This document shows positions 5,154-21,413 of a stretch of DNA of 64,000 nt, one piece after another. Both the position numbers and the translations under genes were made by a program. The DNA is from Neptunicoccus cionae. GTDB taxonomy: Bacteria > Pseudomonadota > Alphaproteobacteria > Rhodobacterales > Rhodobacteraceae. The stretch is from assembly GCF_002860325.1 (NCBI RefSeq), contig NZ_PKOJ01000001.1:434001-498000 (forward strand). The letters are read 5' to 3'. Each line of letters opens with the position of its first letter. The first letter of the stretch is position 1. The notes below the pieces were generated by a model, which was given only the letters and a program-made list of their open reading frames with translations, was not told where the DNA came from and ran no database searches.

Positions 5154-6101
5154 TCACTTCCCCGCTGCCTCGCCCAGATTGTCCGCTTTTACAGCGTCGC
5201 GCTCCCCCATCGGTTCATCCTGCCCGACCGTTGTGTCCTTGCGGGTTTGCGCCTCCAGCTCTGCGTTCACCTCCGCGCCAACCAGAACGATGTAGGCGGA
5301 AATCCAGAACCACATCAGCAAAACGATTGCACCGGCCAAGGTGCCAAAACTTTCATTGTAAGACCCGAAGTTCCCCACGTAAAAAGCAAAGCCGATGGAG
5401 GCGGCGATCCACATGATACAGCCGATAATGGCTCCGGGAGAGGCCCATTGCCATTCCGGGCGGTCCCTTGAAGGAGCAAAGTGGTACAGCGCGGCCAGTC
5501 CGAACATCGTCATTGCCACAAGTACCAGCCACGGCAGTACTGTTGCGAAGACCGAGGACAGCGTCCCCAGATTGGCAAAAGCCAGAATTGCAGGGACTGA
5601 TAGTGTAACTCCGAGCCCGATAATCAGGCCGGCAATCAGCAGGAGTGTCAGGCCGATTGTAACCAGTTTCAATTTGATAAAGCCGCGGGATTCATTTTCG
5701 TCGTAGACGACATTCAACCCCTCGATCAGGCTGGCCATCCCTTTGGACGCCGAATAGACCGCGACCAGTATGCCGATGACCGCAGCCAGCCCGAGACCTC
5801 CGTCTCGTGATCCGGCAACTGCGGTCGCCTGATCGGTAATAATTGTCATAACCTCTTCCGGCATCAGACCGGAGAAAGACTGCATTTGCTCGACAATCTG
5901 GCTGGGTTCGACCAGCAAACCGCTGATGGCGATGACAGCGGTGATGGCCGGAAATAACGCCAGAAGGCCGTAAAACGCCACACCGGCAGCAACCAACCCT
6001 ATCCGATCGTTCGCGATCTCGTCCTTGACGCGGAACGCGACATCCTTCCAGCCTTTGGCAGGGATGTGATCAGGAGATTCTGCTGTGCGGCCTCTTGCCA
6101 T
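5154..6101 (-). CDS. YihY/virulence factor BrkB family membrane protein
   Basis: 315 residues with about six hydrophobic spans. Family features include the N-terminal GWKDVAFRVKDEIANDRI, then AAGVAFYGLLALFPAITA near residue 37 and the late PGAIIGCIMWIAASIGFAFYV and SFGTLAGAIVLLMWFWISAY segments. Once annotated as RNase BN, the family is now regarded as membrane proteins of unclear function. A GAAGGA site lies 8 nt upstream of the ATG. A terminator for the upstream stress operon sits at 6130-6155, so this gene probably has its own promoter just downstream of it or depends on read-through. Confidence 0.88.
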   Translation of the reverse strand: MARGRTAESPDHIPAKGWKDVAFRVKDEIANDRIGLVAAGVAFYGLLALFPAITAVIAISGLLVEPSQIVEQMQSFSGLMPEEVMTIITDQATAVAGSRDGGLGLAAVIGILVAVYSASKGMASLIEGLNVVYDENESRGFIKLKLVTIGLTLLLIAGLIIGLGVTLSVPAILAFANLGTLSSVFATVLPWLVLVAMTMFGLAALYHFAPSRDRPEWQWASPGAIIGCIMWIAASIGFAFYVGNFGSYNESFGTLAGAIVLLMWFWISAYIVLVGAEVNAELEAQTRKDTTVGQDEPMGERDAVKADNLGEAAGK

Positions 6102-6129
6102 CTGGGTCTTCCTTCTTTGCTAGGAGGGG

Positions 6130-6155
6130 AAAAAGGGGGCTGTAAAAGCCCCCTT
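6130..6155 (-). terminator. Rho-independent terminator of the envelope-stress operon
   Basis: On the minus strand, just after the DUF3618 stop at 6162, AGGGGGC and GCCCCCT form a 7-bp GC-rich stem (arms 6148-6154 and 6134-6140) with a 7-nt loop, followed by TTTTT. It separates the stress operon from the YihY gene. Confidence 0.85.
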
Positions 6156-6161
6156 CGTCAA

Positions 6162-7418
6162 TCAGGTGCTTGGTTTTCCAAGCTCCTCTTCCTTGGCCTT
6201 TGATTTGGCTTTGTCTGCGACACGATTGGCAGCCGATTTGGCCTTGTCGCCAACAGCTTCCACTGCGGTTTTGTTACCGGGTGCGCCGCTGTCCAGATCG
6301 GATTTGGTTTCGGATGCGATATCCTTCACCTCTTTCTGGACTGATTTTGCAACCCGTGCGGCTTTTTCTTTCTCTTCCTGAAAGATGCGTTCCGCTTCTT
6401 CAAACATCTTGTCGCTGTGTGCGCCTACGTATTTATCTTCGGTACGTGTACGAGGCAGGGCCCCGCCCAATGCAGCACCGATGGCAAGCGCCAGAGCACC
6501 AACGACAAGTGGTTGCCGGTCGTAGAAGTCCGCCGCGGCGTCCGCCCCTTCAGAGGCTTTCTGTGTTGCGGTCCGGCGCATCTCGATGGCTTTCTCGCGG
6601 GCTGCAATAACCCGTTTGCGGCCTTCCTCGCTAAGGTTCTCGGTACCTTCCGCAATCCGGCTGCGTGCGGCCGCCATTTTGTCCTGAACGGTCCCTGCAC
6701 CACTGGCGATTGCGGATTTGCCTGAGGCTGCGGCTGAAGAAACCTTGTCCCGCAGATTACCCGCACCGTCGCGCAATTTGTCAGCACCGTGGGATACACT
6801 GCCGGACACCTGATTTTTGGCATCAGCCACGCTACCGGCCACCTGATCCTTCGCGTCAGCGACACGATCCCGCGCGTTTGCCAGTGACTCCTTGGCATCA
6901 GCGGCACGATCCGAGATGAAGGAAGACCCGTCATCGTCATCATCTTGCGACCAAGATGGCAGTGGATCACCATTGCCAAGTGTGTTTACAGGCGGTGTAT
7001 AGGGCATTCCGCTGCGGGTACGGGACTGGCGGTAATCGTCCTCGCGGGAGCGATAATCGTCCGCCGGATGCGGCGCGACACGGGTCGCGGGGTAGGCATT
7101 GCGGTCGCGGCTGTCATAACGTTCATCCGTCCGGTAAGCGCGGGAGTGGTTAGACTGTTCACGCTTCTGCCCGTTTCCGAACATCATCCAGGCAAGACCG
7201 ATCCCTGTCAGGGCCAGCGGTACCGGATTGGCTTTGACCTGCTCCACAACAGAGCGGCCCAGATCACCACCGTGTTCGCGGAACTGGTCACCGACCTGAC
7301 GTACCATCGTGTCGATGGAAAACTTGTCTTGCAGGGTTTCGATATTGTCGCTCAGATTGGCACGCTGCCGTTCAATGTCGCGTTCAATTTCACTGGCACT
7401 TCTGGTGTCGTTAGGCAT
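6162..7418 (-). CDS. DUF3618 domain-containing envelope/stress protein
   Basis: 418-residue protein. The N-terminal DUF3618 signature (EIERDIERQRANLSDNIETL) lies at about residues 9-28, followed by a short hydrophobic helix (PLALTGIGLAWMMFG, near residue 84). A long Ala/Asp/Lys-rich region (about 190-300) has imperfect 11-residue repeats such as SVADAKNQVSGSVSHGADKL, like LEA or apolipoprotein amphipathic helices. A second hydrophobic helix (PLVVGALALAIGAALGGALP) and a charged tail follow. The ATG at 7418 was chosen because AAGGAG precedes it by 7 nt; it overlaps the holin-like gene by 8 nt. Last gene of the EcfG-type operon. A membrane-tethered protectant is my inference. Confidence 0.8.
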   Translation of the reverse strand: MPNDTRSASEIERDIERQRANLSDNIETLQDKFSIDTMVRQVGDQFREHGGDLGRSVVEQVKANPVPLALTGIGLAWMMFGNGQKREQSNHSRAYRTDERYDSRDRNAYPATRVAPHPADDYRSREDDYRQSRTRSGMPYTPPVNTLGNGDPLPSWSQDDDDDGSSFISDRAADAKESLANARDRVADAKDQVAGSVADAKNQVSGSVSHGADKLRDGAGNLRDKVSSAAASGKSAIASGAGTVQDKMAAARSRIAEGTENLSEEGRKRVIAAREKAIEMRRTATQKASEGADAAADFYDRQPLVVGALALAIGAALGGALPRTRTEDKYVGAHSDKMFEEAERIFQEEKEKAARVAKSVQKEVKDIASETKSDLDSGAPGNKTAVEAVGDKAKSAANRVADKAKSKAKEEELGKPST

Positions 7419-8802: not shown

Positions 8803-11235
8803 TCAGGCTTTCACCCGCTCCATTTTGGGATCGAACAACGGGGAAAGCGTGACGTTTGCGGGCACCCGTTCTGTGGCTACTTCCAGTTCATATTCTCCTG
8901 AAAGCACATAGTCGCGATCAATCACTCTGTCGCTGCGCACATAGCCCATGCCGATACTCTGCCCGAGCGTGTGCCCGTAGCCGGCAGAGGACAGCCAGCC
9001 GCAGGTTTCCCCGTTGCGATAGATGGTTTCGCGGCCCGACAGGATTACATCCCCGTTACAGGTGAAAGTGGCCATGATCTTTTTCTTGCCCTCTTCCCGC
9101 TGTGCCTGCACCGCCTCGCGTCCTTTGAACGGAATGTTGGATTTCATTTTTACTGCCCAGCCAAGCCCCGCTTCATCCGGTGTATGGTCTGGCCCGATAT
9201 CCGAGCTCCACGCGCGATAGCCTTTCTCCAGACGGAGTGTTTCAATGGCGCGGTAGCCTGCATTACGCAGCCCGTGTTCCTTACCCGCCGCGTGAATCGC
9301 TTCATAGACAGTCAGCGCGTATTCCACAGGCAGGTGCAATTCCCAGCCGAGTTCGCCGACATAGGTGATCCGCAGGGCCAGTACCGGACAGCCTGCGATG
9401 CCGATTTTTCGGGACTGGCCGAACGGGAAGGGTTCATTGCTAATATCGTCGCGGGTGCAGGCAGCAAGGATCTCGCGGGCTTTGGGTCCGAAAAGGGACA
9501 GCACCGCGTTGGAAGAGGTCACATCCACCAGTTGCGCATTCATGCCTTCGGGGATGTTGCGGGCGATCCAGTCGAAATCATGGGTGGCATAGCCGGTGCC
9601 TGTCACGATGTAATACTCGTCCAGCGCGATGCGCACGCAGGTCAGGTCACATTCGATGCCGCCCTTGTCGTTCAGCATCTGGGTATAGATGATACTGCCG
9701 ACGGGCTTGTCCACACGGTTGGAGGCGATCCAGTTCAACGCCGCTTCTGCATCTGGCCCTTTCAGGATGAATTTCGCAAAAGAGGTCTGGTCGAACAGCA
9801 CCGCTGCTTCCCGTGCGGCCTGGTGTTCGCGCCCGACAGCGGCGTGCCAGTTCGGCCGCTCGAATGTGTAGATGTCGCGGGCATCCTCACCTTCTTCGGC
9901 AAACCAGTTGGGCCGCTCCCAGCCCAGTTTCTCGCCAAAGACGGCCCCGCTGCGCAGCAGGGTTTCATAAAGCGGTGAGCGGCGGCAGGGGCGGCCGCTG
10001 GAATGTTCCTCTGAGGGCCATGCCATCGTGTAATGCTTGCCGTAGGCTTCGAGTGTGCGGGTACGCACCCAGTCCTCATCGGAATGGGGGCGGCCAAAGC
10101 GGCGGATGTCCACCGGCCACATGTCATAGGGCGGTGCGCCGTTGGCCACCCATTCCGCCAGCGCCATGCCCGCGCCGCCACCCGAAGCGATGCCGAAGGC
10201 GTTGAACCCTGCGCCGATAAAGACATTGGCCATTTCCGGAGCTTCGCCAAGGATGAAATTCCCGTCGGGCGTAAAACTTTCGGGACCGTTGATCAGTTGC
10301 TTGATCCCTGCCGTTTGCAAGGCGGGAACGCGGGGCAGGGCCAGTTCGACAAGTTGTTCGAAATGGTCGAAGTTCGACTCCAGCAGCTGGAAGTCGAACG
10401 GTTCGGGGATACCTTCTTTCGCCCAAGGGATGCCGTTAGGTTCGTAGCCGCCCATGACCAGCCCGCCAACTTCTTCCTTGTAGTAGGTCAAACGGTCAGG
10501 ATCGCGCAGGGTCGGCAGATCGGAAGGCACATCAAAGGGTTCAGTCACCATATACTGGTGTTCGACAGACACCAGCGGCACGGTCACGCCGATGGTTTTG
10601 GCCAGTTCGCGGGTCCACTGGCCACAACACAAGACCAGCTTTTCGCACATAACATCGCCTTGCGGGGTGCGCACGCCGGTGATCTTTCCCTTCTCCGTCA
10701 GGATTTCTGTTACAGGGGTATGTTCCACCAGTTTCGCGCCCTTGGCCCGCGCACCTTTGGCCAGCGCTTGTGTGATGTCGGCAGGGTTGGCCTGTCCGTC
10801 TGTGGGCAGGAAGGCCGCGCCAACCACATCACCGATGTCCATCAGCGGCCACAGGTCCTGTGCTTCTTGCGGGGACAAAAGCTGCATGTCCAGCCCGAAG
10901 CTATGGGCGGTGGTGGCCTGCCGTTTCACCTCGGTCCAGCGTTCCTGATTACACGCCAATCGCAGCCCGCCGTTCATCTTCCAGCCGGTGGCAAGGCCGG
11001 TTTCCGCTTCGAGGTTTTTGTAAAGATCAATGGAATAGCCCAGCAGCCGCGTGATATTGGCGTTCGACCGCAGCTGTCCGACGAGTCCGGCTGCGTGCCA
11101 TGTGGAACCGGACGTCAGCTGCGCCTTTTCCAGCAGCAACACCTCCTGACCCATTTGCGCCAGATGGTAGGCGGTGGAGCACCCGATAATTCCGCCACCG
11201 ACGATGACGATTTTCGAAGAGGATGGGAGTTTCAT
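8803..11235 (-). CDS. FAD-dependent dehydrogenase with GcvT domains (dimethylglycine/sarcosine dehydrogenase-like), copy 1
   Basis: 810-residue cytoplasmic enzyme predicted to demethylate an N-methylated amine oxidatively and pass the one-carbon unit to tetrahydrofolate. The N-terminal Rossmann FAD motif VGGGIIGCSTAYHLAQMG is followed by STWHAAGL, where the His is the covalent FAD attachment site in DMGDH/SARDH enzymes. A DAO-type domain fills about residues 1-370, then a FAO-type linker, the GcvT aminomethyltransferase domain (about 430-700) and the GcvT C-terminal barrel. The substrate cannot be read from the sequence. Last gene of the betaine transporter operon, 8 nt after the kinase gene. 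A paralogue lies at 18087-20504. Confidence 0.85.
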   Translation of the reverse strand: MKLPSSSKIVIVGGGIIGCSTAYHLAQMGQEVLLLEKAQLTSGSTWHAAGLVGQLRSNANITRLLGYSIDLYKNLEAETGLATGWKMNGGLRLACNQERWTEVKRQATTAHSFGLDMQLLSPQEAQDLWPLMDIGDVVGAAFLPTDGQANPADITQALAKGARAKGAKLVEHTPVTEILTEKGKITGVRTPQGDVMCEKLVLCCGQWTRELAKTIGVTVPLVSVEHQYMVTEPFDVPSDLPTLRDPDRLTYYKEEVGGLVMGGYEPNGIPWAKEGIPEPFDFQLLESNFDHFEQLVELALPRVPALQTAGIKQLINGPESFTPDGNFILGEAPEMANVFIGAGFNAFGIASGGGAGMALAEWVANGAPPYDMWPVDIRRFGRPHSDEDWVRTRTLEAYGKHYTMAWPSEEHSSGRPCRRSPLYETLLRSGAVFGEKLGWERPNWFAEEGEDARDIYTFERPNWHAAVGREHQAAREAAVLFDQTSFAKFILKGPDAEAALNWIASNRVDKPVGSIIYTQMLNDKGGIECDLTCVRIALDEYYIVTGTGYATHDFDWIARNIPEGMNAQLVDVTSSNAVLSLFGPKAREILAACTRDDISNEPFPFGQSRKIGIAGCPVLALRITYVGELGWELHLPVEYALTVYEAIHAAGKEHGLRNAGYRAIETLRLEKGYRAWSSDIGPDHTPDEAGLGWAVKMKSNIPFKGREAVQAQREEGKKKIMATFTCNGDVILSGRETIYRNGETCGWLSSAGYGHTLGQSIGMGYVRSDRVIDRDYVLSGEYELEVATERVPANVTLSPLFDPKMERVKA

Positions 11236-11243
11236 ATCTTGCC

Positions 11244-12119
11244 TTACGTGTTTGCAAAGTCGGACAGGGCCGCGTTCAGCCTGTCGAGGTTTTGGCTGGT
11301 GTATTGCGCATAGTCAAAGTCCAGCGCCGAGTGGATTTCAGAGGTCATCGACCAGAGTGTTTCGCGCATGAGGGAGGCGCATTTCATCGCCTGATAGGGG
11401 CGCCAGCGATCATCGGCGGAGGCGGCGAAATACTGTTCCAGCATCTGCCGTTCCTGCGCCTCGCCCAACCCGTTGTTCGAAGCCAGTCCGGCCAGATCGA
11501 ACAGGGGCGCGTTAAAGCCGCCGTATTCCCAGTCGATCAGCCAGAGCTTGTCACCGTCGTCCAGAATATTTGCCGCCAGCAGGTCGTTGTGCCCGATCAC
11601 CAGTTCCACTGCTCCGGTCGCTTGCTCCAGCATTTCGCTTTGTGCGGTAAGTTCGTCGAACATGCCTTGGTACTTGGAGCCTGCGGCCAGCAAACGTGTG
11701 ATATAGGTGCGGTTCACCTGATAGGGCCAGAAGGCCAGAACGGGTTTGATCAGATGCTGTCCCATTTCTGTGTGCACGTCGTGCATCAGCGCCACAATCC
11801 GGTGCAGGTTTTCGGGTTTGCGCACATCTTCTTCGGCAAAGGTACGCGCCTCCAGAAACTCCAGCACCAGAACACCGTCTTCGTGGTAAACAACTTCGGG
11901 GGAAAACCCGCCCTTGGCTGCTGCTTGGGACAGGGCCAGTTCGTTCCAGCGCATGACGCCGTGTTCTTCAATATCCGCACCGATGCGAACCACGTATTTT
12001 CGGCCCTGATCGGTGACAGTCAGGTTCACATTGGTGATTCCGCCGCTTAGCGGTTTGATGTCCTGCGGGTTACTAAAGCAGGACAGGGCGGCTGTCCGTT
12101 CTATCGCGTTTTCTGTCAT
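11244..12119 (-). CDS. Choline/ethanolamine-kinase-like phosphotransferase, copy 1
   Basis: 291-residue kinase of the APH/choline kinase superfamily. It has an N-terminal nucleotide-binding lobe (GGITNVNLTV, then YVVRIGADIEEHGV), the catalytic loop VIGHNDLLAANIL (HxDxxxxN) and the metal-binding LIDWEYGGFN. The frame is open further upstream, but that part is a shadow of the permease gene; the ATG at 12119 overlaps the permease stop by 4 nt and gives a normal N-terminus. Lying between a betaine-type transporter and a demethylating dehydrogenase, it probably phosphorylates an amino alcohol brought in by the transporter; the substrate is inferred. Confidence 0.82.
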   Translation of the reverse strand: MTENAIERTAALSCFSNPQDIKPLSGGITNVNLTVTDQGRKYVVRIGADIEEHGVMRWNELALSQAAAKGGFSPEVVYHEDGVLVLEFLEARTFAEEDVRKPENLHRIVALMHDVHTEMGQHLIKPVLAFWPYQVNRTYITRLLAAGSKYQGMFDELTAQSEMLEQATGAVELVIGHNDLLAANILDDGDKLWLIDWEYGGFNAPLFDLAGLASNNGLGEAQERQMLEQYFAASADDRWRPYQAMKCASLMRETLWSMTSEIHSALDFDYAQYTSQNLDRLNAALSDFANT

Positions 12120-14098
12120 AAGCCCAACCTCCTGCGTTGTCCTTCGGCCAGTGCGTTTACGATCCGGTCGGCCACAATGGCGATGAAGGCCACGGACAGA
12201 CCCGCGACGATGCCTTGCCCTGCGTTGGCTTTGGTCAGGGCGATATAGACCTCTTGCCCCAGATCGCGGGTGCCCACCAAAGCGGTGATCACCAGCATGG
12301 AAATTGCCAGCATGATGGTCTGGTTCAGCCCCAGCAGCAGTTGCGGCGTGGCCAGCGGCAGTTTCACCCGCCACAGCAGTTGCCGTTTGGTGCAACCGGA
12401 CATGACACCGGCTTCGATCATCTGTTCGGGTACATCACGCAAACCGTGGGCGGCATAGCGTACCGCAGGGGCCAGCGCATAAAGAACGACCGCGATCATG
12501 GCGCTGAAATCACCGACGCGGAACAGCATCACAACCGGGATCAGATAGACAAAGCTTGGCAGGGTTTGCAGCGTGTCCATAAACCCGAGGATCACACGCC
12601 CCGCAGCGGGTTTCTCGGCGGCCCAAATGCCAAGGGGTATGCCGATCACCGTGGCGATCAGAACCGACACACCGCACAGATAAATCGTTATCATCGCCTT
12701 GGCCCACAGCCCGCTTGCTGCAATAAAGGCCATCATCAGGGCGGCCATAACGCCCAGCTTCCAGCCGCCGATGCGCCATGAAATCAGGCCGGTCGCGATG
12801 ATGCCCCAAGCCCAGGGGATACCGCTGAAGAATTTCTTTACCGGCAGCAAAAGCCCTTGCAACACAACGACCTTGATCGCCTCGAAGGTGTCGAAAAAGT
12901 TGACGTTGATCCACTCCATCGCATCGCTCCAGAAGGGGCCGGTGGTCAGGGTCATGGCATCGGGATAGGTTTGCAGCGCGGGAACGAAACGGCCCAGCAC
13001 CAGATTGGCCAGGATCACCAAGAGCACGGTGCTGCTCCACGGATGGCGTTGAAGAAGATTGCCTTCCGGCAGGTTTCGCTGGCTGCGTTCCGCAAAGGCC
13101 TGACTGGCACGGTCAAGCGCGATGGCCATGACAACAATGGCCAGTCCTGCTTCAATTCCCGCGCCGATGTCGAGCCGCCGCAAAGACGCCAGCACATCGA
13201 ACCCGAGCCCGCCCGCGCCGATCATTGACGCAATAATCACCATGTTGAGCGAGAGCATGATCACCTGATTGACGCCAACCATAAGGGACGGTGTGGCCGA
13301 GGGCACCAGAACCTTCCACATGATCTGGCGCTTTGTGCAGCCCGCCATGCGTCCGGCTTCCTGAATTTCTTCGGGTACGGAATGAAGCGACAGAATGGTG
13401 ATCCGTACCATCGGAGGCATGGCATAAATCACGGTTGCCACAAGTGCGGCAACAGGGCCAAAACCGAACAGGATCAGGATCGGCACCAGATAGGCAAAGA
13501 CCGGTACTGTCTGCATCAGATCCAGAACGGGTTGCAGCAGGCGGTTGAACCACGGTGCGCGGTAGGCCGCAATCCCCAGAAACAACCCGCCGACCGCGCC
13601 GATCGGCACCGCGATCAGAACAGAGGCCAGCGTGATCATGGCACTGTGCCATTGCCCGAACACAGCAAGGTAGAGAAAACACGCCCCTACCAGCGCAGCC
13701 AGCGCCCAGTTACGGGCGTAATGGCCGATGGCAATGACGCAGACCACGACAGCCACCCAGCCAAGCGACGGGGCAAGTTGCACGGCGCTGTCGCCATAGC
13801 CTGTGGTGAAGCCTTCAATGAGCAGATTGCGCAGGAACTGGTAAGGGGCTTCCAGCACGGCGGCAATCGCGCGGGTCAGGTCCCTGAAAGTGAAGAAATA
13901 GAAGTTCGCAGTTTCCACCAGCCAGTCCAGAAAACCGCTGATAGAGTCTTCCAGTGGCAGTTGCCATTTCTTTGGATAGCGGATGATCCAGCGGGCATCG
14001 AGCGCCTTGTAAAGCTGGAAGGAATATTGCGACAGCAGCCAAGTGACCGCAAACAGGCCAAGCCAGAAAACCCTGCCGGATGTGAGCCAGCGTCCCAT
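12116..14098 (-). CDS. Betaine-type ABC transporter permease with two fused permease domains
   Basis: 660-residue inner-membrane protein carrying two full binding-protein-dependent permease modules, where ProW-type subunits have one. Each module ends in a similar EAA-loop region: KRQIMWKVLVPSATPSLMVG then MLSLNMVIIASMIGAGGLG in the first, and KRQLLWRVKLPLATPQLLLG then MLAISMLVITALVGTRDLG in the second. A membrane-associated N-terminus precedes module one. One chain could therefore form the whole channel. It is directly adjacent to the ATPase gene (ends at 14098, ATPase starts coding at 14099) and overlaps the kinase start. Substrate class (glycine betaine, proline betaine, choline or similar) is inferred from the partners. 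Confidence 0.88.
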   Translation of the reverse strand: MGRWLTSGRVFWLGLFAVTWLLSQYSFQLYKALDARWIIRYPKKWQLPLEDSISGFLDWLVETANFYFFTFRDLTRAIAAVLEAPYQFLRNLLIEGFTTGYGDSAVQLAPSLGWVAVVVCVIAIGHYARNWALAALVGACFLYLAVFGQWHSAMITLASVLIAVPIGAVGGLFLGIAAYRAPWFNRLLQPVLDLMQTVPVFAYLVPILILFGFGPVAALVATVIYAMPPMVRITILSLHSVPEEIQEAGRMAGCTKRQIMWKVLVPSATPSLMVGVNQVIMLSLNMVIIASMIGAGGLGFDVLASLRRLDIGAGIEAGLAIVVMAIALDRASQAFAERSQRNLPEGNLLQRHPWSSTVLLVILANLVLGRFVPALQTYPDAMTLTTGPFWSDAMEWINVNFFDTFEAIKVVVLQGLLLPVKKFFSGIPWAWGIIATGLISWRIGGWKLGVMAALMMAFIAASGLWAKAMITIYLCGVSVLIATVIGIPLGIWAAEKPAAGRVILGFMDTLQTLPSFVYLIPVVMLFRVGDFSAMIAVVLYALAPAVRYAAHGLRDVPEQMIEAGVMSGCTKRQLLWRVKLPLATPQLLLGLNQTIMLAISMLVITALVGTRDLGQEVYIALTKANAGQGIVAGLSVAFIAIVADRIVNALAEGQRRRLGL

Positions 14099-15112
14099 TC
14101 AGCGCCGCCCCACCAAAACGTCGATCACGGCACTTCGGGTGATCTGGCCGATGACTTCGCCGTCCTGTTCCACGTGAAACGGGTGTTCGGCAGCCTCGAC
14201 ACGATCTCCGATGGTTTCAATTGTGGCGTTTGCAGGAACGGTTCCGGAAAAACTGTCGCCGCTTAGCGGTTCTGCAAGGGCGGCGGCAGTGATCACTTTG
14301 GCGCGGTTCACATGGCGGGTAAATTCCGCCACATAATCGGTTGCAGGGTTCAGAACCAGTTCTTCGGGCTTGGCCACCTGCTGGATCGCGCCGTCCTTCA
14401 TGACGGCAATACGGTCGGCAAGGCGGATCGCCTCGTCAAAGTCGTGGGTAATGAAGATGATCGTCTTGTGCAGCATGTTCTGCAGGCGGATGAATTCGTC
14501 CTGCATTTCGCGCCGGATCAGCGGATCAAGCGCAGAAAACGGTTCGTCCAGAAACCACAGGTCCGGTTCCACCGCAAGAGACCTTGCGATGCCGACCCGT
14601 TGCTGCTGGCCACCGGACAATTCGCGCGGGTAATAACCTTCGCGCCCCTTGAGACCGACCAGTTCCACCACCTCTTGCGCGCGGGCCAGACGCTCCGCCT
14701 TGGGCACGCCCTGCACATCCAGCGGGAAGGCGGCGTTTTCCAGAACCGTCAGATGGGGCAGCAGGGCAAACTGCTGGAAAACCATACCCATTTTGCTGCG
14801 CCGGATCTGGATCAGCTCCTTGTCGGTCTTGTTCAGAAGGTTTTCACCTTCAAAGTGGATTTCACCCGCCGTGGGTTCCACAAGGCGGGACAGACATCGG
14901 ACCAGTGTTGATTTACCGGATCCCGACAGGCCCATAATCACGAAAATCTCGCCCTTGAAAATCTGCACATTGGCCGCCCGTACCGCGCCGATCAATCCGG
15001 CCCGTCCCAGATCCCCCTTTTTCGGCGCCGGCGTGTTTTTCAGGAAGGTTTCGGCGTTCGGTCCGTAAAGTTTCCAGACATCGCGGCATTCTAGTATGAC
15101 TGATTGGTTCAT
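14099..15112 (-). CDS. Betaine-type ABC transporter ATP-binding protein (ProV/OpuAA family)
   Basis: 337-residue ATPase subunit. It shows the ProV-type N-terminus (VWKLYGPNAETFLK), Walker A GLSGSGKST, signature [16 protein letters not shown], Walker B LWFLDEPFSALD and an H-loop ITHD. The last ~60 residues look like a shortened CBS-type regulatory region (AEHPFHVEQDGEVIGQITRS). It couples ATP hydrolysis to uptake with the double permease and the periplasmic protein encoded on either side. A 119-nt gap with a stem-loop separates it from the upstream binding-protein gene, a layout that often gives excess binding protein. Confidence 0.9.
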   Translation of the reverse strand: MNQSVILECRDVWKLYGPNAETFLKNTPAPKKGDLGRAGLIGAVRAANVQIFKGEIFVIMGLSGSGKSTLVRCLSRLVEPTAGEIHFEGENLLNKTDKELIQIRRSKMGMVFQQFALLPHLTVLENAAFPLDVQGVPKAERLARAQEVVELVGLKGREGYYPRELSGGQQQRVGIARSLAVEPDLWFLDEPFSALDPLIRREMQDEFIRLQNMLHKTIIFITHDFDEAIRLADRIAVMKDGAIQQVAKPEELVLNPATDYVAEFTRHVNRAKVITAAALAEPLSGDSFSGTVPANATIETIGDRVEAAEHPFHVEQDGEVIGQITRSAVIDVLVGRR

Positions 15113-15189
15113 TCTGTCCTCGGGGCGGCTGGCGCGGGCAGGCCGCGCAGCCTAAGCATGTGTCGTGCTATCAGGGGGTATTGGATGCT

Positions 15190-15216
15190 GGAGCGCCGCA
15201 TTTCCTGCCGCGCTCC
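15190..15216 (-). other. Stem-loop between binding-protein and ATPase genes
   Basis: GGAGCGC and GCGCTCC (arms 15216-15210 and 15196-15190) form a 7-bp stem after the binding-protein stop at 15232. On the transcribed strand no T-run follows, so it is more likely an mRNA-protecting or partial-termination hairpin than a full terminator. Such hairpins commonly raise the amount of periplasmic binding protein. Confidence 0.5.
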
Positions 15217-15231
15217 TTTTTGGATATGCTG

Positions 15232-16164
15232 TTACTTCACGATCCACGAAGACCATGCGTCTTTGTTCTCGGTCATCCAAGCCGCAACAACCTCTTCAAC
15301 GGTTTTGCCGTTCAGATCCACATCGGCCACCATTGCGCCCATGTCTTCGTTGGTGATCTTGAAGTTCTTGATTGCTTTCTCGGCGTTTGGCCATTTCTCG
15401 CCAAGTCCGGCCCATGCCGCCTTCCAGATCGGACCTGTCGGCTTGCCGCAGTCATAGGCAGCGTCCGGATTTACACCAACAGACGGATCGCTGTAGCATT
15501 CCGGTGTGTAAGGAGGAAACTCGACATAGCTGCCTTCGAATTTTGCCGGTGCCCAGTGGGGTGAATAGAGCCAGAGCATGATCGGGTCTTTCCGCTGGTA
15601 GGCCGCTTCCAGTTCGGCAAATAGCGCCGCATCGGTGCCTGCGTGCACCACTTCGAAATCCAGTTCCAGTGCTTCAACCCGTTCATCATCAAAGCCGCCC
15701 CACGTGACAGGGCCGCCCAGATACCGGCCCATCGGTGCGGTTTCGGCTGTGGCGAACTCATCCGCGCAATCCTTCAACGCTTCCCAATTCGGAAGGCCGG
15801 GGCAGCGTTCTTCCATATAGGAAGGATACCACCATTCCTCGATCGCCATCATGCCGGTTTCGCCCAGATTGACCACATTGCCGGTGGCAAAGGCCTCGTC
15901 CATTGCTTCGCGCGCTGTGGTTTCCCACAGTTCCATCGCCACATGCAGATCGCCGGTTTTCAGACCGGCAAATTGCGCGATGTAATCCGCCTGAACATAT
16001 TCGACGTTATATCCGGCTTCTTCCAGAACCTCGCCCATCAGCGTGGTGGTGATGAGCTGACCGGACCAGTCGTGCAAGGTCAGTTTGATCGGGTCGGTGG
16101 ATTCCTGTGCCAGCGCCGGTGATGCCGCCAAAAACGCGGCCGCCGCTACGGAAATATACTTCAT
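15232..16164 (-). CDS. Glycine-betaine-type ABC transporter substrate-binding protein
   Basis: 310 residues with a clear signal peptide (MKYISVAAAAFLAASPALAQ). The mature part has the OpuAC/ProX-type opening (IKLTLHDWSGQLITTTLMGE) and many tryptophans and tyrosines (ELWETT, EEWWYPSY, LYSPHWAP) of the sort that form an aromatic box around a quaternary ammonium group. Several cysteines could form disulfides. The frame is open to 16251, but the ATG at 16164 begins the signal peptide and follows GGGAG. First gene of a five-gene operon (binding protein, ATPase, permease, kinase, dehydrogenase), with ATCAACAAA repeats upstream. Confidence 0.9.
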   Translation of the reverse strand: MKYISVAAAAFLAASPALAQESTDPIKLTLHDWSGQLITTTLMGEVLEEAGYNVEYVQADYIAQFAGLKTGDLHVAMELWETTAREAMDEAFATGNVVNLGETGMMAIEEWWYPSYMEERCPGLPNWEALKDCADEFATAETAPMGRYLGGPVTWGGFDDERVEALELDFEVVHAGTDAALFAELEAAYQRKDPIMLWLYSPHWAPAKFEGSYVEFPPYTPECYSDPSVGVNPDAAYDCGKPTGPIWKAAWAGLGEKWPNAEKAIKNFKITNEDMGAMVADVDLNGKTVEEVVAAWMTENKDAWSSWIVK

Positions 16165-16261
16165 TCTAAAACTCCCTGTGTTGGATCGGGGCGTCCGGTC
16201 TTGGGTCGGGTCAAATGCCCGCGGATCGCCGGTAATGATCCAACTATACAATCAGATTCCA

Positions 16262-16287
16262 AATCAATATCAACAAAAATCAACAAA
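16262..16287. promoter_or_regulatory. Putative operator: tandem ATCAACAAA repeats
   Basis: Two perfect copies of ATCAACAAA (16269-16277 and 16279-16287) stand 10 bp apart, one helical turn, preceded by a partial copy (AATCAAT at 16262-16268). They lie about 100 nt upstream of the binding-protein gene and of the divergent phosphatase gene. The same 9-mer occurs beside the DeoR-type regulator gene (20546-20605), so this is the likely operator of that regulator. Tandem short repeats are typical of DeoR-family sites. Confidence 0.6.
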
Positions 16288-16382
16288 AGTTTCGATTATA
16301 TGTAGATTTGCGTCAGGATTTGCGGGATACCGAACAGGAAACCGCCTAAACGCCCGAAAATTTGGCAGACCGGATAAACGTA

Positions 16383-17153
16383 ATGAGCGATCTGAAACTG
16401 CGCCTTGAAACGGCAACCCGCATTACCGAACAAGCTGCAAAAGTGGCGATGGCCCATTTTCGCAACAGCCCCGACATTGAAACCAAGTCGGACCAGAGCC
16501 CTGTAACGGTTGCAGATAAAGAAACCGAAACCGCGATCCGAGACGGTCTGGCCAGAGCCTTTCCGCAAGAGCCGATTTACGGCGAGGAGTTCGGCCGTTC
16601 GGGGACCGGTGCGGATATGTGGATTGTTGATCCAATCGACGGAACCCGTTCCTTTATTACCGGTCTGCCCCTGTTCGGACTGCTGCTGGGATATTTGCAC
16701 AGCGGTACGCCACAACTCGGGATCATCCGGATGCCTGCGCTGGGCGAAACCTATACCGGCGCGGTCGGGCTGGGGGCGATGTGTAACGGTGTGCCGGTCC
16801 AAAGCAGCCGTTGCGAGAGCCTTGCAACCGCGCGTCTGTTTCTGAACGAGGGGGACAAGCTGGCGGTCCGCGAACCTGCGGTCTTTTCCCGACTCGTGCA
16901 GGCCGGAGAGTTGCGGCGTATGGGGGCGGATTGCTATCCCCATGCGCTGGTGGCCCGCGGGCTGGCCGACGCGGTCGTGGATTACGATCTGCAACCCTAC
17001 GATTACCTGCCGGTGTCCGCGGTGGTCCATGCGGCGGGGGGAATCATGACAGACTGGGAGGGCCAGGCTTTAACCATGAATTCCGACGGGCGCACCCTTA
17101 CAGCGGCGACACCGGCCCTGCACCGTGAACTGATGGAACTTGTGAACGCTTAA
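16383..17153 (+). CDS. Inositol-monophosphatase-family phosphatase (HisN-like)
   Basis: 256-residue Mg2+-dependent, Li+-sensitive-type phosphatase fold. Metal-binding motifs are visible: IYGEEFG (Glu), IVDPIDGTRSFITGLP (DPIDGT) and the later GGIMTDWEGQAL (Asp). The RSFITGLPLFG variant resembles histidinol-phosphate phosphatases (HisN) more than true inositol monophosphatases. The ATG at 16383 (MSDLKLRLET) was preferred to the upstream 16362 start. It is divergent from the betaine transporter operon and converges by 4 nt on the second kinase gene. That setting suggests a phosphorylated intermediate of the amine pathway as substrate; a role in histidine synthesis is the alternative. Confidence 0.8.
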   Translation: MSDLKLRLETATRITEQAAKVAMAHFRNSPDIETKSDQSPVTVADKETETAIRDGLARAFPQEPIYGEEFGRSGTGADMWIVDPIDGTRSFITGLPLFGLLLGYLHSGTPQLGIIRMPALGETYTGAVGLGAMCNGVPVQSSRCESLATARLFLNEGDKLAVREPAVFSRLVQAGELRRMGADCYPHALVARGLADAVVDYDLQPYDYLPVSAVVHAAGGIMTDWEGQALTMNSDGRTLTAATPALHRELMELVNA

Positions 17154-18076
17154 CCCTTTTCCACCGCAGCCACATGACCGGCAAAGGCAGGGTCTTGCAT
17201 CAGGGCCTTGCACCGCGCGAAGCGTTCCGTGGCATAAGCCCAGAAATCCTCGGCCGGATTCTTGTCGGCATGCTGGATCAATCCCCAAAGGGTCCAGAGC
17301 AGATCGCACATGGCCTTGTAAATCACCATGCGCCCGATCTCGGCTGCGGTCGGTGAACGTCCGAAGTAGGCTTCCAAGAGTTCTCGGTCCTGTGCTGCAT
17401 TCAAACCTGCCTCGACTGACAAGTCGCCCACATCCCACAAGGGATCGTTCATGCCGGAATATTCCCAATCCACAATCCACATGATATTGCCGTCATCCAG
17501 AAAATTCTCGCACAGCGGATCACAATGGCAAGGCGCCAGGGGCAGGTCCGCATTGGCGAGTGCCTGTTTAACCGGCGCGGCGGCTGATACCACATCGTGA
17601 TAGCCTTCGGGCAGGTCTACGTCTTTGGTCGCAAGGATTTTCAGGTAATCGTCAATCATCGAAAACAGCTCGAACCGGAACTGGAACGTCTCGCCCGAGC
17701 CATGCAGTTTTGCCAGCGCCTTGCCTGCCCTTGCGGGCGCGCCTTTCCGGCTTTGAAACAGCGCAGGAGTCATGGTTTCAATGTCAGGCACCGTTCGCGT
17801 GATCATCAGGCCGGTTTCGGATCGGGCAAGCAGAACCTCTGGTGACACACCGGCCCGCGCAGCGGCCTTCGCATTGTGCTTCTCCACCGCGCGGTCGATG
17901 TAATCTTCCGTACCTTCGCCCGGAATCCTGACAATCACGGACGAGCCGTCAAATTCCACACGGTAGACCAGATTGGTCATCCCGCCGAGCCGTGTAATAC
18001 TATCTACCTGCTGCACATGGTTAAATTGCGGTGCCTCCCGCAGCGCTGCCAGTACCTTGTCCCTGTTGTCTGTCAT
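17150..18076 (-). CDS. Choline/ethanolamine-kinase-like phosphotransferase, copy 2
   Basis: 308 residues, same superfamily as the gene at 11244 but clearly diverged. Visible motifs are GGMTNLVYRV in the nucleotide-binding lobe, VIVRIPGEGTEDYIDR, the catalytic loop APCHCDPLCENFL (HxDxxxxN) and IVDWEYSGMNDPLWDV for metal binding. It follows the second dehydrogenase gene by 10 nt in the same direction, so each dehydrogenase is paired with its own kinase. The pairing argues that phosphorylation is part of the same pathway or of a parallel one for a second amine. Confidence 0.82.
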   Translation of the reverse strand: MTDNRDKVLAALREAPQFNHVQQVDSITRLGGMTNLVYRVEFDGSSVIVRIPGEGTEDYIDRAVEKHNAKAAARAGVSPEVLLARSETGLMITRTVPDIETMTPALFQSRKGAPARAGKALAKLHGSGETFQFRFELFSMIDDYLKILATKDVDLPEGYHDVVSAAAPVKQALANADLPLAPCHCDPLCENFLDDGNIMWIVDWEYSGMNDPLWDVGDLSVEAGLNAAQDRELLEAYFGRSPTAAEIGRMVIYKAMCDLLWTLWGLIQHADKNPAEDFWAYATERFARCKALMQDPAFAGHVAAVEKG

Positions 18077-18086
18077 CGTTCCCCCG

Positions 18087-20504
18087 TTACCCTTTTAATG
18101 CACTGTTCGCCGGATCATAGACCGGACTGTCGGTCTGGTGGATGCTGTAATGGTCCCCGAAAACCTCCAGCGTGAAATCTGTCTGTTGCCAATGTTCCCG
18201 ATCCAGATAGCCCCGCAGGATGGTCTGCCCCACAGTGTGACCATAGCCGACAGATGTCGCGAGCGAGACCAGACGATCCCCGAGCAGGATCGCCTCGCCC
18301 CCGGTCAGGGGCAAATGTTCGTCCGTTACAAACGTGCAAAGCCGCCGGTCGATCCCGCCGGTTTTCTGCGCTTCCAGAACCTCTCTGCCGATAAAGTCGC
18401 CCTTGGATTTCAGATGCACGCGAAAGCCGAGCCCCGCTTCGATTGGGGTGTAATCCGGCGTTATGTCACCCGACCAATAAACATAGCCCTTTTCCATCCG
18501 CAGGCTTTCAATCGCACGGTAGCCTACATTTGCGATGCCGTGGGGCTGTCCCGCCTGCCATAAAGTGTCATAGACATGGGCGGCAAATTCGGTGGGGATG
18601 TGTAATTCATACCCCAGTTCCCCGACATATCCCATCCGTGCGGCCCGTACCGGTGCTGCACCGATGATGATCTCCCGCGCGGTTGAGAACGGAATGGCGC
18701 TGTCCGATACATCGCTTTCAGAAGCAGCGGCCAGAACGTCGCGCGATTTCGGGCCGACGATATTCAGAACAGCGGTTCCGCTTGTCACCTCGATCAGATG
18801 CACCGACCCGTCGTTGGGCAGATGCCTTTTGATCCAGTTGCTGTCATGCACCCCAAAGCCCGATCCTGTGACCATGTAGAACCGCTCTGCACCAAGGCGA
18901 ATGAAGGTCACGTCAGCCTCTGTCCCGCCTTTGGCGTTGCACATCTGGGTGTAGATGATGCTGCCCACGGGCTTGTCCATGTTGGAAACACATAGTCTTT
19001 GCAAAAGGTGCAGCGTACCTGACCCGAGGATTTCGAATTTGGCAAAACTGGTCTGGTCGATCAGGGCCACACGTTCGCGCACGGCTTTGTGTTCCTGTGC
19101 GGCAAACTGTTTCCATCCGGGGTTAAGGAAGTCCAGTTGGTCTGTAGCCGGAACCCCTTCGGGGGCGAACCATAGCGGGCGCTCCCAACCGTTTTTCGAT
19201 CCGTAAACCGCGCCCTGATCCTTCAGTTTCTGATAGAGCGGGGACAGGCGCAACTGGCGGGCGGTTTCATGTTCCTGCCCGGGATAGCGCATCTTGTAGT
19301 GATGGGCGTAATGTTCCACCGCGCGGGGATACATAAAGGCGCGCGTGCCGTGATGCGGCCCGAAACGGCGAACATCCAATGGCCATAGATCAAGCGAGGG
19401 TTGCCCGTCCACCACCCACTCGGCAATCATCTCTCCGGCACCGCCACCTGCGGCAATGCCATAAAGAAACCCTGTCGCCATCATCAGGTTCTTATAGTCG
19501 GGCTGCCAGCCCATCACGAAATCCCCGTCGGCGGAATAGGGGATCGGACCGTTGATCACCTGCCGGATGCCGACCTCGTTGATGACGGGTGTGACCTTAC
19601 CCGCAAGTTCCGCCAACGGCAGGAAACGGTCAAGGTTTTCAGGCAAAAGCTGGCGCACGAATTTCCCCGGAATACCTGTGTTGCCGAAGGGCAGGGTGTC
19701 CTCTTCATAGCCGCCGACCACCAGCCGCCCGCCAACATCCGGTTTGTAATAGACCAGCCGCTCGGGATCGCGCAGGGTGGGGTAGTTGCCGATATCGCTG
19801 CCAGTGGATTCCGTGATGATATACTGGTGTTCGACCGCGCAGGCGGGCACTCTGATGCCAAGTTTCGCGGCGATTTCGCGGCTCCACATGCCGGTAGCAA
19901 GGATAACCGTTTCCGCCTCCCAGCGCCCTTCGGTGGTTTCAGCCGAGGTGATCCGCCCGCCGCTGGTATTGAAATCTGTCACTTCAACATTCTGGCGGAT
20001 ATCTGCGCCTTGCCGCCGCGCGGCTCCTGCGATGGCCTGACACAGCGAGGCCGGATCTACATAGCCGTCAGAAGGGATAAAGGCAGCGCCTTCCAGCCCT
20101 TTGTCGTCGATCAGCGGGAACAGGTCTTTAGCCTCGGAAGGGCTGATGATCTGCATTTCGAGATCAAAACTGCGGGCCATGGTTGCCAGCCGCTTTGCTT
20201 CCAGCATCCGTTCTCTGGTCGCCGCCAGCCGCAGGGAGCCGGTCTTCTTCCAGTCAAACTGCAACCCTTCCTCATCTTGCAACCTGTCGTACATCTCGAC
20301 CGATTTCTTCAGCATCCGCGTCGTGTTGCGCGAGGAGCGCAACTGCCCCACCAGCCCTGCCGCGTGCCATGTGGCGCCTTCGGTCAGACTGGCCCGTTCC
20401 AGCAGCACGACGTTTTTCTCGCCCATGCGGGTCAGGTGATAAGCGATAGAGCACCCGATGATGCCTCCGCCAATGATCAGATGTTTCGCTGCGTGTTGTG
20501 CCAT
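18087..20504 (-). CDS. FAD-dependent dehydrogenase with GcvT domains (dimethylglycine/sarcosine dehydrogenase-like), copy 2
   Basis: 805 residues, same architecture as copy 1: FAD motif IIGGGIIGCSIAYHLTRMG, covalent-FAD type ATWHAAGLVGQLR, DAO domain, FAO linker, GcvT domain with SIIYTQMCNAKGG and GYVGELGYELHIP, and the GcvT C-terminal barrel. The ATG at 20504 was chosen; a GTG at 20528 would add eight residues, and neither has a strong ribosome site. Probably demethylates an N-methyl amine with folate as acceptor. Divergent from the DeoR-type regulator across a 144-nt region packed with ATCAACAAA-type repeats. Confidence 0.84.
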   Translation of the reverse strand: MAQHAAKHLIIGGGIIGCSIAYHLTRMGEKNVVLLERASLTEGATWHAAGLVGQLRSSRNTTRMLKKSVEMYDRLQDEEGLQFDWKKTGSLRLAATRERMLEAKRLATMARSFDLEMQIISPSEAKDLFPLIDDKGLEGAAFIPSDGYVDPASLCQAIAGAARRQGADIRQNVEVTDFNTSGGRITSAETTEGRWEAETVILATGMWSREIAAKLGIRVPACAVEHQYIITESTGSDIGNYPTLRDPERLVYYKPDVGGRLVVGGYEEDTLPFGNTGIPGKFVRQLLPENLDRFLPLAELAGKVTPVINEVGIRQVINGPIPYSADGDFVMGWQPDYKNLMMATGFLYGIAAGGGAGEMIAEWVVDGQPSLDLWPLDVRRFGPHHGTRAFMYPRAVEHYAHHYKMRYPGQEHETARQLRLSPLYQKLKDQGAVYGSKNGWERPLWFAPEGVPATDQLDFLNPGWKQFAAQEHKAVRERVALIDQTSFAKFEILGSGTLHLLQRLCVSNMDKPVGSIIYTQMCNAKGGTEADVTFIRLGAERFYMVTGSGFGVHDSNWIKRHLPNDGSVHLIEVTSGTAVLNIVGPKSRDVLAAASESDVSDSAIPFSTAREIIIGAAPVRAARMGYVGELGYELHIPTEFAAHVYDTLWQAGQPHGIANVGYRAIESLRMEKGYVYWSGDITPDYTPIEAGLGFRVHLKSKGDFIGREVLEAQKTGGIDRRLCTFVTDEHLPLTGGEAILLGDRLVSLATSVGYGHTVGQTILRGYLDREHWQQTDFTLEVFGDHYSIHQTDSPVYDPANSALKG

Positions 20505-20545
20505 GATGCCATCCAAGGGGGTTTTCACGGTTCACAGTAGTTAAA

Positions 20546-20605
20546 ATCAACATCGTGGCAACGAATTTGTTGATTTGTGTTGATATAAGCCGCAAAATCA
20601 ACAAA
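20546..20605. promoter_or_regulatory. Putative operator cluster: ATCAACAAA/TTTGTTGAT repeats
   Basis: The divergent region between dehydrogenase 2 and the DeoR-type regulator holds ATCAACA (20546-20552), TTTGTTGAT (20566-20574), TGTTGAT (20578-20584) and ATCAACAAA (20597-20605). The two inner TTGAT units are exactly 10 bp apart, like the pair at 16269-16287. Regulator autoregulation and control of both amine operons are the simplest reading. Confidence 0.62.
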
Positions 20606-20648
20606 TGCGGGCTGTTGTTTGGCAAGTTTCTGGGTATAGGTATCGCAA

Positions 20649-21413
20649 ATGTCGAAATATGAAGCACAGATTCTACACGCGGTTGATATGCGGGGAACAC
20701 TCTCGGTAGTGGAGCTTTCGCAAATGCTCGGCGTGTCCGACCAGACCATCCGCCGTGTAACACAGCCTCTTGTCGCAAGCGGGCGTCTGGACAAGGTGCA
20801 CGGAGCGCTGGTTTCCAATCGTATCGCAACGGACCCGCCTTATCTGGCGCGGATGAACCTGAACCGTGCCGCCAAAGTAGCCATTGCCAAGGAAGCGGCA
20901 GAGATCATCGGGGACGGGGCCAGTATTGCAATCGACACCGGTTCGACCTCGGGGTTTATCGCGCAGGCCTTGCGGGCGCGCAAGGAACTGACCGTTGTGA
21001 CGAATTCGGCCTTTGTGGCCAGCACGCTGGCGATTATTCCGGGCAACAAGGTGTTTATGGCGGGAACCCAGTTGCGCGACCATGACGGGGCAGCCTTTGA
21101 CCGCTCGGCATTTGACGTGATCGAGAGGATGCAGGTGGATTACGCGCTTTTGTCCGCGTCGATGGTGGATGCTGTCAAAGGGTTTCTGGTGCATGAACAA
21201 TGCGAAGTGGAAATTGCCACCGCCATGCTGCGCAATGCAGGCAAGGTGATAATGGCAGTGGACCATTCCAAATTCACACCGCAGGACCGTCGCCCCGCGG
21301 TGCGCCAGCCCCTGTTAAAGGCTGGCGATTTTGTCGTAACAGACCGCCGCCCCGACCCAGCCTTTGACAAGCTCCTGTCAGGACTGGAACTGCGGATCGC
21401 AGAGCAGGGCTAA
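20649..21413 (+). CDS. DeoR/GlpR-family transcriptional regulator
   Basis: 254 residues. The N-terminal winged helix (residues ~1-55, SVVELSQMLGVSDQTIRRVTQPL) is followed by a DeoRC sensor domain (about 75-235) with a ligand-pocket type IDTGSTSGFIAQAL and LTVVTNSAFVAS, and a conserved KVIMAVDHSKF. The recognition helix is normal for the family apart from VTQ in place of the commoner DLN. DeoR-family regulators usually sense phosphorylated metabolites, which fits kinases in the same locus. Divergent from dehydrogenase 2; likely controls itself and both amine operons through ATCAACAAA repeats. Confidence 0.88.
   Translation: MSKYEAQILHAVDMRGTLSVVELSQMLGVSDQTIRRVTQPLVASGRLDKVHGALVSNRIATDPPYLARMNLNRAAKVAIAKEAAEIIGDGASIAIDTGSTSGFIAQALRARKELTVVTNSAFVASTLAIIPGNKVFMAGTQLRDHDGAAFDRSAFDVIERMQVDYALLSASMVDAVKGFLVHEQCEVEIATAMLRNAGKVIMAVDHSKFTPQDRRPAVRQPLLKAGDFVVTDRRPDPAFDKLLSGLELRIAEQG

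Follow-up and report, generated by a model that had tools for sequence, protein, structure and literature searches.

A conserved, DeoR-linked gene set pairing choline-kinase-family kinases with dimethylglycine dehydrogenase-type enzymes in Neptunicoccus cionae, a candidate regulon for methylated amine use

In a 64-kb stretch of the 4.29-Mb genome of Neptunicoccus cionae (C1:434001-498000, hereafter the window), we examined a locus at window positions 8803-21413 that encodes an ATP-binding cassette (ABC) transporter, two choline-kinase-family kinases (kinA and kinB), two dehydrogenases of the dimethylglycine dehydrogenase (DMGDH) type (dhA and dhB), a phosphatase and a DeoR regulator. An earlier, sequence-only reading had listed a betaine-type transporter, two choline-kinase-like enzymes, two DMGDH-type dehydrogenases, a HisN-like phosphatase and a DeoR protein here, and open reading frame (ORF) calls together with Pfam and NCBIfam profile scans recovered all of them among nine genes. 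On the minus strand, the order is a periplasmic substrate-binding protein of the OpuAC family that is TmoX-like (15232-16164, with the better start at the ATG at 16164; PF04069, 175 bits), an ABC ATPase of the betaine/proline/choline family (14099-15112; TIGR01186, 337.1 bits, cut-off 326.6), a fused permease with two BPD_transp_1 stretches (12116-14098; TIGR03416, 438 bits, cut-off 363), kinA (11244-12119; PF01633 Choline_kinase, 77.8 bits, cut-off 29) and dhA (8803-11235), followed farther right by dhB (18087-20528) and kinB (17150-18076; PF01633, 66.6 bits, cut-off 29). kinA, scanned as a longer ORF that ends at 12395, has a better start in the ATG at 12119, which overlaps the permease stop. 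The products of dhA and dhB are flavin adenine dinucleotide (FAD)/GcvT di-domain proteins, each with Pfam DAO, FAO_M, GCV_T and GCV_T_C matches. The plus strand carries the gene for the HisN-like phosphatase of the inositol-monophosphatase family (16383-17153, better start 16383; PF00459, 176.8 bits), which is divergent from the binding-protein gene and whose end abuts kinB, and deoR (20649-21413; PF00455 DeoRC, 121.7 bits, and PF08220 HTH_DeoR, 43.4 bits, both above cut-off), which is divergent from dhB. Each kinase gene adjoins one dehydrogenase gene with a gap of ~10 bp. Rfam, tandem-repeat and tRNA scans of the window gave nothing of note, and promoter and terminator scans (4 and 11 found, compared with 5.2 and 13.7 in shuffles) gave no signal.

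Both divergent intergenic regions carry an identical tandem TGTTGA repeat, TGTTGATTTnTGTTGA. One exact copy, TGTTGATTTTTGTTGA, lies between the binding-protein and phosphatase genes (16270-16285, minus strand) and the other, TGTTGATTTGTGTTGA, between deoR and dhB (20568-20583, plus strand). At up to two mismatches the window contains three matches against 0.11 expected, the third (two mismatches) being at 26343 inside the gene for DddP. Genome-wide, the two window copies are the only exact ones, with seven more at two mismatches, and the reversed pattern gives one match. Since the two window sites served to define the pattern, their own match is no independent evidence, while the scarcity in the genome and the occurrence in relatives are independent. 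For loci with a DeoR at least 64% identical (the window and a 98% relative included), a site with at most two mismatches was found before dhB in 17/17 and before the binding-protein gene in 15/16. The numbers fell to 15/19 and 6/12 where DeoR was 50-63% identical, and to 7/39 and 6/40 where DeoR was <50% identical or absent. Both regions carried the site in 15/16, 6/12 and 2/29 loci of these three groups (the last being <50% or no DeoR), and a single-base shuffle, with one copy per region, gave 0/33, 0/31 and 1/79. The presence of the site follows DeoR identity, as expected of a true operator, and we predict that DeoR binds it. This common operator-like site links the kinase genes with the dehydrogenase genes.

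The gene set is conserved well beyond Neptunicoccus. A kinB-seeded scan of named genomes yielded at least 80 loci, and the counts for this set hold among the loci listed, all of which contain kinB by construction. These loci come from Roseibium, Labrenzia, Sulfitobacter, Roseovarius, Rhizobiaceae, Pelagibius and others, as well as from two contigs labelled Granulosicoccus/Granulosicoccaceae. Among the 55 listed loci longer than 20 kb, dhB was detected in 49 and deoR in 48; the transporter genes were each present in 47, dhA in 44, kinA in 43 and the phosphatase gene in 31. Roseibium album CECT 5095 (L055) and Sulfitobacter sp. M05 (L056), both culturable, have the complete set of nine. Outside this core, no cluster of related genes was found in more than 5 of the 80 listed loci, a count made on mechanically called ORFs at fixed limits of identity and length, which may miss genes. 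Taking as neighbours genes on the same strand <400 bp apart, in 101 loci after duplicate removal, kinA and dhA were neighbours in 61 of the 64 loci having both, and kinB and dhB in 77/77; crossed pairs were rare (kinB-dhA 1/55, kinA-dhB 0/54). Left out of this tally were L031, L032, L034 and L037 (on the same contigs as L053, L109, L095 and L100), L041, L045 and L047-L050 (a dehydrogenase relative alone seen, or fragments), and matches below fixed bit thresholds. kinA occurred without dhA in five of the 101 loci, four of which (L094, L103, L116 and L123) run to a contig end or close to it; the fifth, L198, is not cut in this way.

Searches seeded with the other genes gave a similar picture for kinA and dhA. 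Of 289 genomes from the class, 28 had a match to the binding protein at E <=1e-60, with 12 loci, the window included, at 58% identity or more; of the loci below 50%, L155 was fetched with wide flanks. In all 11 of the other loci at this identity, kinA or kinB lies at most 6.6 kb from the binding-protein gene, and nine also have the matching dehydrogenase (exceptions L197 and L198). In a kinase-profile search of 398 genomes of the phylum, kinA was found in 22 (window included) and kinB in 12, and all 12 kinB genomes also have kinA (hypergeometric 2e-17, ignoring kinship, with seven of the 12 from a single family, f160). All 22 kinA genomes have dhA in the locus, and in 21 the two genes are immediate neighbours (<=39 bp); they are 9.9 kb apart in L231. 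Among 60 further genomes of one family, seven have kinA, with dhA adjacent in five. Collectively, these data show that the gene neighbourhood is not due to chance and that kinA and dhA form its constant core, with kinB-dhB as a second, optional cassette. The sequence-only reading had named a lack of conserved neighbours as what would tell against it; instead, the genes are kept together across genera and families.

kinA and kinB are the only genes of the genome to exceed the choline-kinase cut-off, and their Pfam matches and catalytic residues assign both products to the choline kinase family. The catalytic H-x-D...N and D residues (HND...N...D in kinA) are invariant in 69/69 kinA and 8/8 kinB orthologues. 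The two proteins are 29% identical to each other. For kinB, the closest PDB entry is 3dxq (402 bits), named a choline/ethanolamine kinase family protein, followed by the choline kinase 4r77 (112 bits), which we take to be LicA; kinA matches both weakly (68 and 43 bits). kinB also has a W..W...Y box that can be aligned with that of choline kinases, with W..W and the Tyr kept in 89/89 orthologues. The WxxW helix presumably carries the two tryptophans of the cation cage in choline kinases. In kinA the first Trp and the Tyr of this box are kept, the second Trp is replaced by V, T, I or A in 69/69 orthologues, and there is an invariant Glu two residues past the replaced position. Given these pocket differences, kinA and kinB probably recognise different amines. 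kinB resembles 3dxq and the choline kinase 4r77 in its catalytic motif and box but differs in adjoining a demethylase and an importer, while in kinA the box itself is changed.

By architecture and key residues, dhA and dhB (48% identical) are placed in the dimethylglycine dehydrogenase family. The closest PDB entries are DMGDH structures (dhA: 4pab, 525 bits, and 5l46, 524 bits; dhB: 5l46, 461 bits). We take the conserved columns to be the flavin-linking His, the equivalents of His225 and Tyr259 of dimethylglycine oxidase, and the folate-binding Asp. The flavin-linking His, the HQY His and the Tyr are present in 62/62 dhA orthologues and the folate Asp in 61/62 (one gap); in dhB, the flavin His and active-site His/Tyr are present in 74/76 (two gaps) and the folate Asp in 76/76. 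Neither protein qualifies as the trimethylamine N-oxide demethylase Tdm (159.5 and 169.6 bits, compared with a cut-off of 1100 for NF053776). In a tree of 30 sequences, dhA forms one clade and dhB its own, and of six other long paralogues in the genome one joins dhA (support 95/90), on a branch flagged as long so that its placement is unsure. That DMGDH-like paralogue is part of a separate betaine-type set (C2, 61-67 kb) in which, naming the genes by eye, a homocysteine-methyltransferase-like gene lies between two genes of the DMGDH/sarcosine dehydrogenase (SARDH) type. Ordinary betaine degradation is therefore unlikely at the locus in the window. For Ruegeria pomeroyi, the betaine enzymes include the DMGDH SPO3400 and the SARDH SPO3396 (PMC4744692). 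The roseobacter betaine route (BHMT, SPO3400, SPO3396) is similar in that folate-domain dehydrogenases hand methyl carbons to tetrahydrofolate, but no kinase is named in the available part of that report, where the word occurs 0 times (PMC4744692). At the window locus, by contrast, a kinase adjoins each dehydrogenase, and the gene resembling a homocysteine methyltransferase sits outside the locus.

Among PDB entries, 4xz6 is the closest to the binding protein (268 bits, E ~1e-78; next entry 58 bits), ahead of the choline and ProX entries. We take 4xz6 to be TmoX. In 72/72 binding proteins, five Trp columns of 4xz6 are retained and the Trp of FNWTPN is a Tyr. The locus resembles the TmoXWV/Tmm/Tdm pathway, as described in the accessible portion of PMC13390433, in its binding protein and, in locus L266, in a Tmm gene upstream of kinA-dhA; it differs in the Trp-to-Tyr change in FNWTPN and in that no tmm or tdm was seen at the window locus. 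Surveys of TmoX have used a threshold of e-80, according to the part of the source available (PMC10132767), and, databases differing, might include this binding protein. The genome encodes a second TmoX-like binding protein (41% identity, with a long permease; L155, C11:222001-242000) beside an arginase gene (291 bits, cut-off 228), so the TmoX-like family is not tied to one ligand. By eye, no kinase lies around this second copy, and TmoX-like proteins may serve arginine-type compounds too.

The phosphatase scored 233 bits against the histidinol phosphatase HisN model TIGR02067, below the cut-off of 275.15. A better HisN-like copy, itself just below this cut-off (273 bits), is encoded elsewhere in the genome; we therefore set aside a role in histidine synthesis for the copy at the locus, which may be pathway-specific.

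Genes that flank the set in other genomes gave further hints at the substrate. In L193 the choline dehydrogenase gene betA lies directly upstream of the binding-protein gene (813 bits, cut-off 732). In L266 the trimethylamine monooxygenase gene tmm is on the same strand upstream of kinA-dhA (826 bits, cut-off 675). In L076, TmpB (340 bits, cut-off 300) and TmpA (403 bits, cut-off 400, clipped by the stretch end) are encoded ~1 kb beyond dhA. In L234 the neighbour of kinA-dhA is a relative of ethanolamine-phosphate phospho-lyase. Each link is rare and none names the substrate, yet jointly the neighbours suggest methylated-amine chemistry.

We propose, tentatively and at somewhat less than an even chance, that the locus is a self-contained, DeoR-controlled regulon through which an N-methylated amine with a hydroxyl group, likeliest an ethanolamine-type amino alcohol, is taken up and then used by phosphorylation, folate-linked demethylation and dephosphorylation. 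The OpuAC/TmoX-like ABC transporter would import the amine, a choline-kinase-family kinase would phosphorylate its hydroxyl group, and the partner FAD/GcvT dehydrogenase would remove an N-methyl group, passing the one-carbon unit to tetrahydrofolate. kinA-dhA would be the core of this sequence, with kinB-dhB acting on another methyl group or on a similar substrate. The phosphatase would then free the demethylated amino alcohol. DeoR would repress both operons at the tandem-TGTTGA site and be released by an intermediate of the pathway, plausibly a phosphorylated one.

Several observations weigh against this interpretation. The second kinase-dehydrogenase pair is looser in the phylum sample, where kinB is beside dhB in 4/12 genomes (the window, G563, G630 and G073). 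In the seven f160 genomes kinB lies 0.8-2.5 kb behind kinA-dhA with no dhB in the stretch (dhB elsewhere was not sought), and in G195 kinB is alone, on a different contig from kinA. In the 101-locus set kinB lacks dhB in 12 loci, some cut by a contig end. kinA is without dhA in L198 and, in the 60-genome sample of one family, lacks it in the stretch examined in L263 and L267. The proposed order also requires dhA and dhB to take a phosphate in the place of the dimethylglycine carboxylate. The phosphatase gene was undetected in 24 of the 55 long loci, and the cation box of kinA is altered throughout its orthologues. In three genomes (L228-L230), kinA-dhA share a strand with genes for a sugar-type ABC transporter and for a Gfo/Idh/MocA oxidoreductase, a setting that fits an amino alcohol less well; the alternative transporter of these loci could help to identify the substrate. 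In L096 and L101, the transporter and kinB genes accompany a true PhnW, without dhA, dhB or kinA in the stretch. Finally, a phospho-lyase, which could act on a phosphorylated amino alcohol, is no fixed partner of the set (1/129 sequences, that of L234, and 0/6 loci of relatives, some of them short). The claim that each kinase is paired with a dehydrogenase therefore stands for the window and the kinB-seeded loci and gives way for kinB in the phylum sample. The broader claim of an undescribed route of phosphorylation, demethylation and dephosphorylation is partly supported: the conserved set, the intact catalytic residues, the separate betaine-type set and the operator-like repeat on both operons speak for it. 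The constant core narrows to kinA and dhA, and the phosphatase may not be required.

A more specific version of the proposal is that dhA and dhB act on O-phosphorylated N-methyl amino alcohols and not on the free amines, converting phospho-dimethylethanolamine to phospho-monomethylethanolamine and then to phosphoethanolamine. We regard this as possible but doubtful. If true, such kinase-gated demethylation would mirror, in catabolism, the N-methylation of phosphoethanolamine that leads to phosphocholine, and it would give lipid headgroup amines a tetrahydrofolate-linked route to ammonia and one-carbon units. Because the kinB-dhB association is looser in the phylum sample, we rate both the regulon proposal and this version of it slightly lower, and the following alternative slightly higher, than we otherwise would.

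In that alternative the order of steps is reversed: dhA and dhB demethylate first, and the kinases then phosphorylate the demethylated amino alcohol, for trapping, for phospholipid headgroups or for a lyase, with the phosphatase tuning the pool. We consider this unlikely, if still deserving of attention. Gene order does not fix step order; a kinA with one lost box Trp and invariant Glu residues would suit a less methylated amine; and in 7/12 kinB genomes there are two kinases to one dehydrogenase in the stretch. In addition, a relative of ethanolamine-phosphate phospho-lyase is encoded beside kinA-dhA in L234 (5g4i, 361 bits; 6tor, 321 bits; next entry, 179 bits), where it and an aldehyde dehydrogenase gene are convergent with dhA. 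Phospho-lyases such as 6tor (ethanolamine-phosphate phospho-lyase) and 5g4i share with the proposed pathway a phosphorylated amino alcohol intermediate but were found neither at the window locus nor at the other loci checked. The known substrate of ethanolamine-phosphate phospho-lyase has a free amine and, to our knowledge, the phospho-lyase route involves no demethylation. Matches to the L234 relative at E <=1e-70 are present in 24/36 genomes, so its place beside kinA-dhA may be chance. Against the reversed order, the near-invariant association of kinA with dhA suggests matching substrates, and the methyl-ammonium box is kept in kinB.

Another alternative concerns the substrate, which could be sugar-like or a guanidino or N-hydroxy methylated amine, with the kinases acting on a sugar or an N-hydroxyl group in the manner of GntI and DeoR sensing a sugar-phosphate-like ligand. 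GntI (NF041256) is the best NCBIfam match of both kinases, at 161 and 153 bits, and L076 has a GntC-like gene (320 bits, cut-off 415) close to the locus. Sugar phosphates are frequent ligands of DeoR proteins, and the sugar-type transporter and oxidoreductase of L228-L230 would fit as well. However, both scores fall well short of the GntI cut-off of 357, the solved proteins closest to kinB carry the name choline/ethanolamine kinase, and every binding protein compared has the five Trp columns of 4xz6. We find this substrate class improbable.

Ordinary degradation of glycine betaine, dimethylglycine and sarcosine, with the kinases as unrelated neighbours, is disfavoured and seems very improbable. 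The nearest solved proteins of dhA and dhB are indeed DMGDH structures, and the paralogue from the betaine-type set groups with dhA, if its unsure placement holds. Against this stand the betaine-type set itself, the adjacency of kinA and dhA in 21/22 genomes, and the operator-like site common to the kinase and dehydrogenase genes.

Least probable of all is that the transporter brings in a methylated aminophosphonate or a product of its breakdown, with the kinases downstream in organophosphorus metabolism: the TmpB and TmpA genes of L076 and the PhnW, kinB and HD-domain phosphonate-oxygenase relative of L096 and L101 would suit it, but TmpB-like genes are in just 4/80 listed kinB-seeded loci (L076, L096, L099 and L101), two of which are close relatives, and the transporter is of the OpuAC type. 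On the same count, we rejected phosphonate degradation as a general role of the set. In L096:3217-9878 and L101:3205-9863, both from marine single-cell genomes, the transporter genes continue into PhnW (521 bits in L096, cut-off 296; the L101 copy is 97% identical) and a ureidoglycolate-lyase-like gene, and the stretch contains no member of the dhA/dhB dehydrogenase family.

The gene families at the locus are all known, while their combination, the kinase-dehydrogenase pairing and the operator-like site were not found described in the open-access literature searched. There, no title or abstract described this gene set, with most subscription papers and all preprints lying outside the search. 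Methylated amines form an important component of the dissolved organic nitrogen of the sea, as stated in the part of the source available (PMC13390433). For the regulon that we propose, a conserved uptake and catabolic unit with an unusual kinase-demethylase pairing would offer a small, testable gene set.

Other genes near these loci were also noted. In the window, a DMSP (dimethylsulfoniopropionate) lyase gene, dddP, lies a few kb from the putative regulon (25142-26482, plus strand; 878 bits, cut-off 600), and nearby acyl-CoA dehydrogenase, thiolase, GntR and acyl-CoA ligase genes may go with it. In the marine single-cell genome of L076, the region upstream of dhB (L076:2899-6020) encodes a PRK07324 aminotransferase (also GntC-like), an ornithine-cyclodeaminase-family protein and, by eye, a dehydratase-like protein. 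A class-I methyltransferase-like gene, again by eye, is beside kinB in two families (L239:12997-13704 and L241:8484-9116). A relative of 3-hydroxy-D-aspartate aldolase (186 bits, cut-off 690) is encoded upstream of dhB-kinB on the same strand at L064:1619-2716 (plus strand). Finally, in L242 a decayed, broken kinB-like gene comes just after kinA-dhA (6049-6653, minus strand), and beyond it lie genes for a further ABC transporter and for a CehA/McbA-type metallohydrolase (87 bits, cut-off 80).

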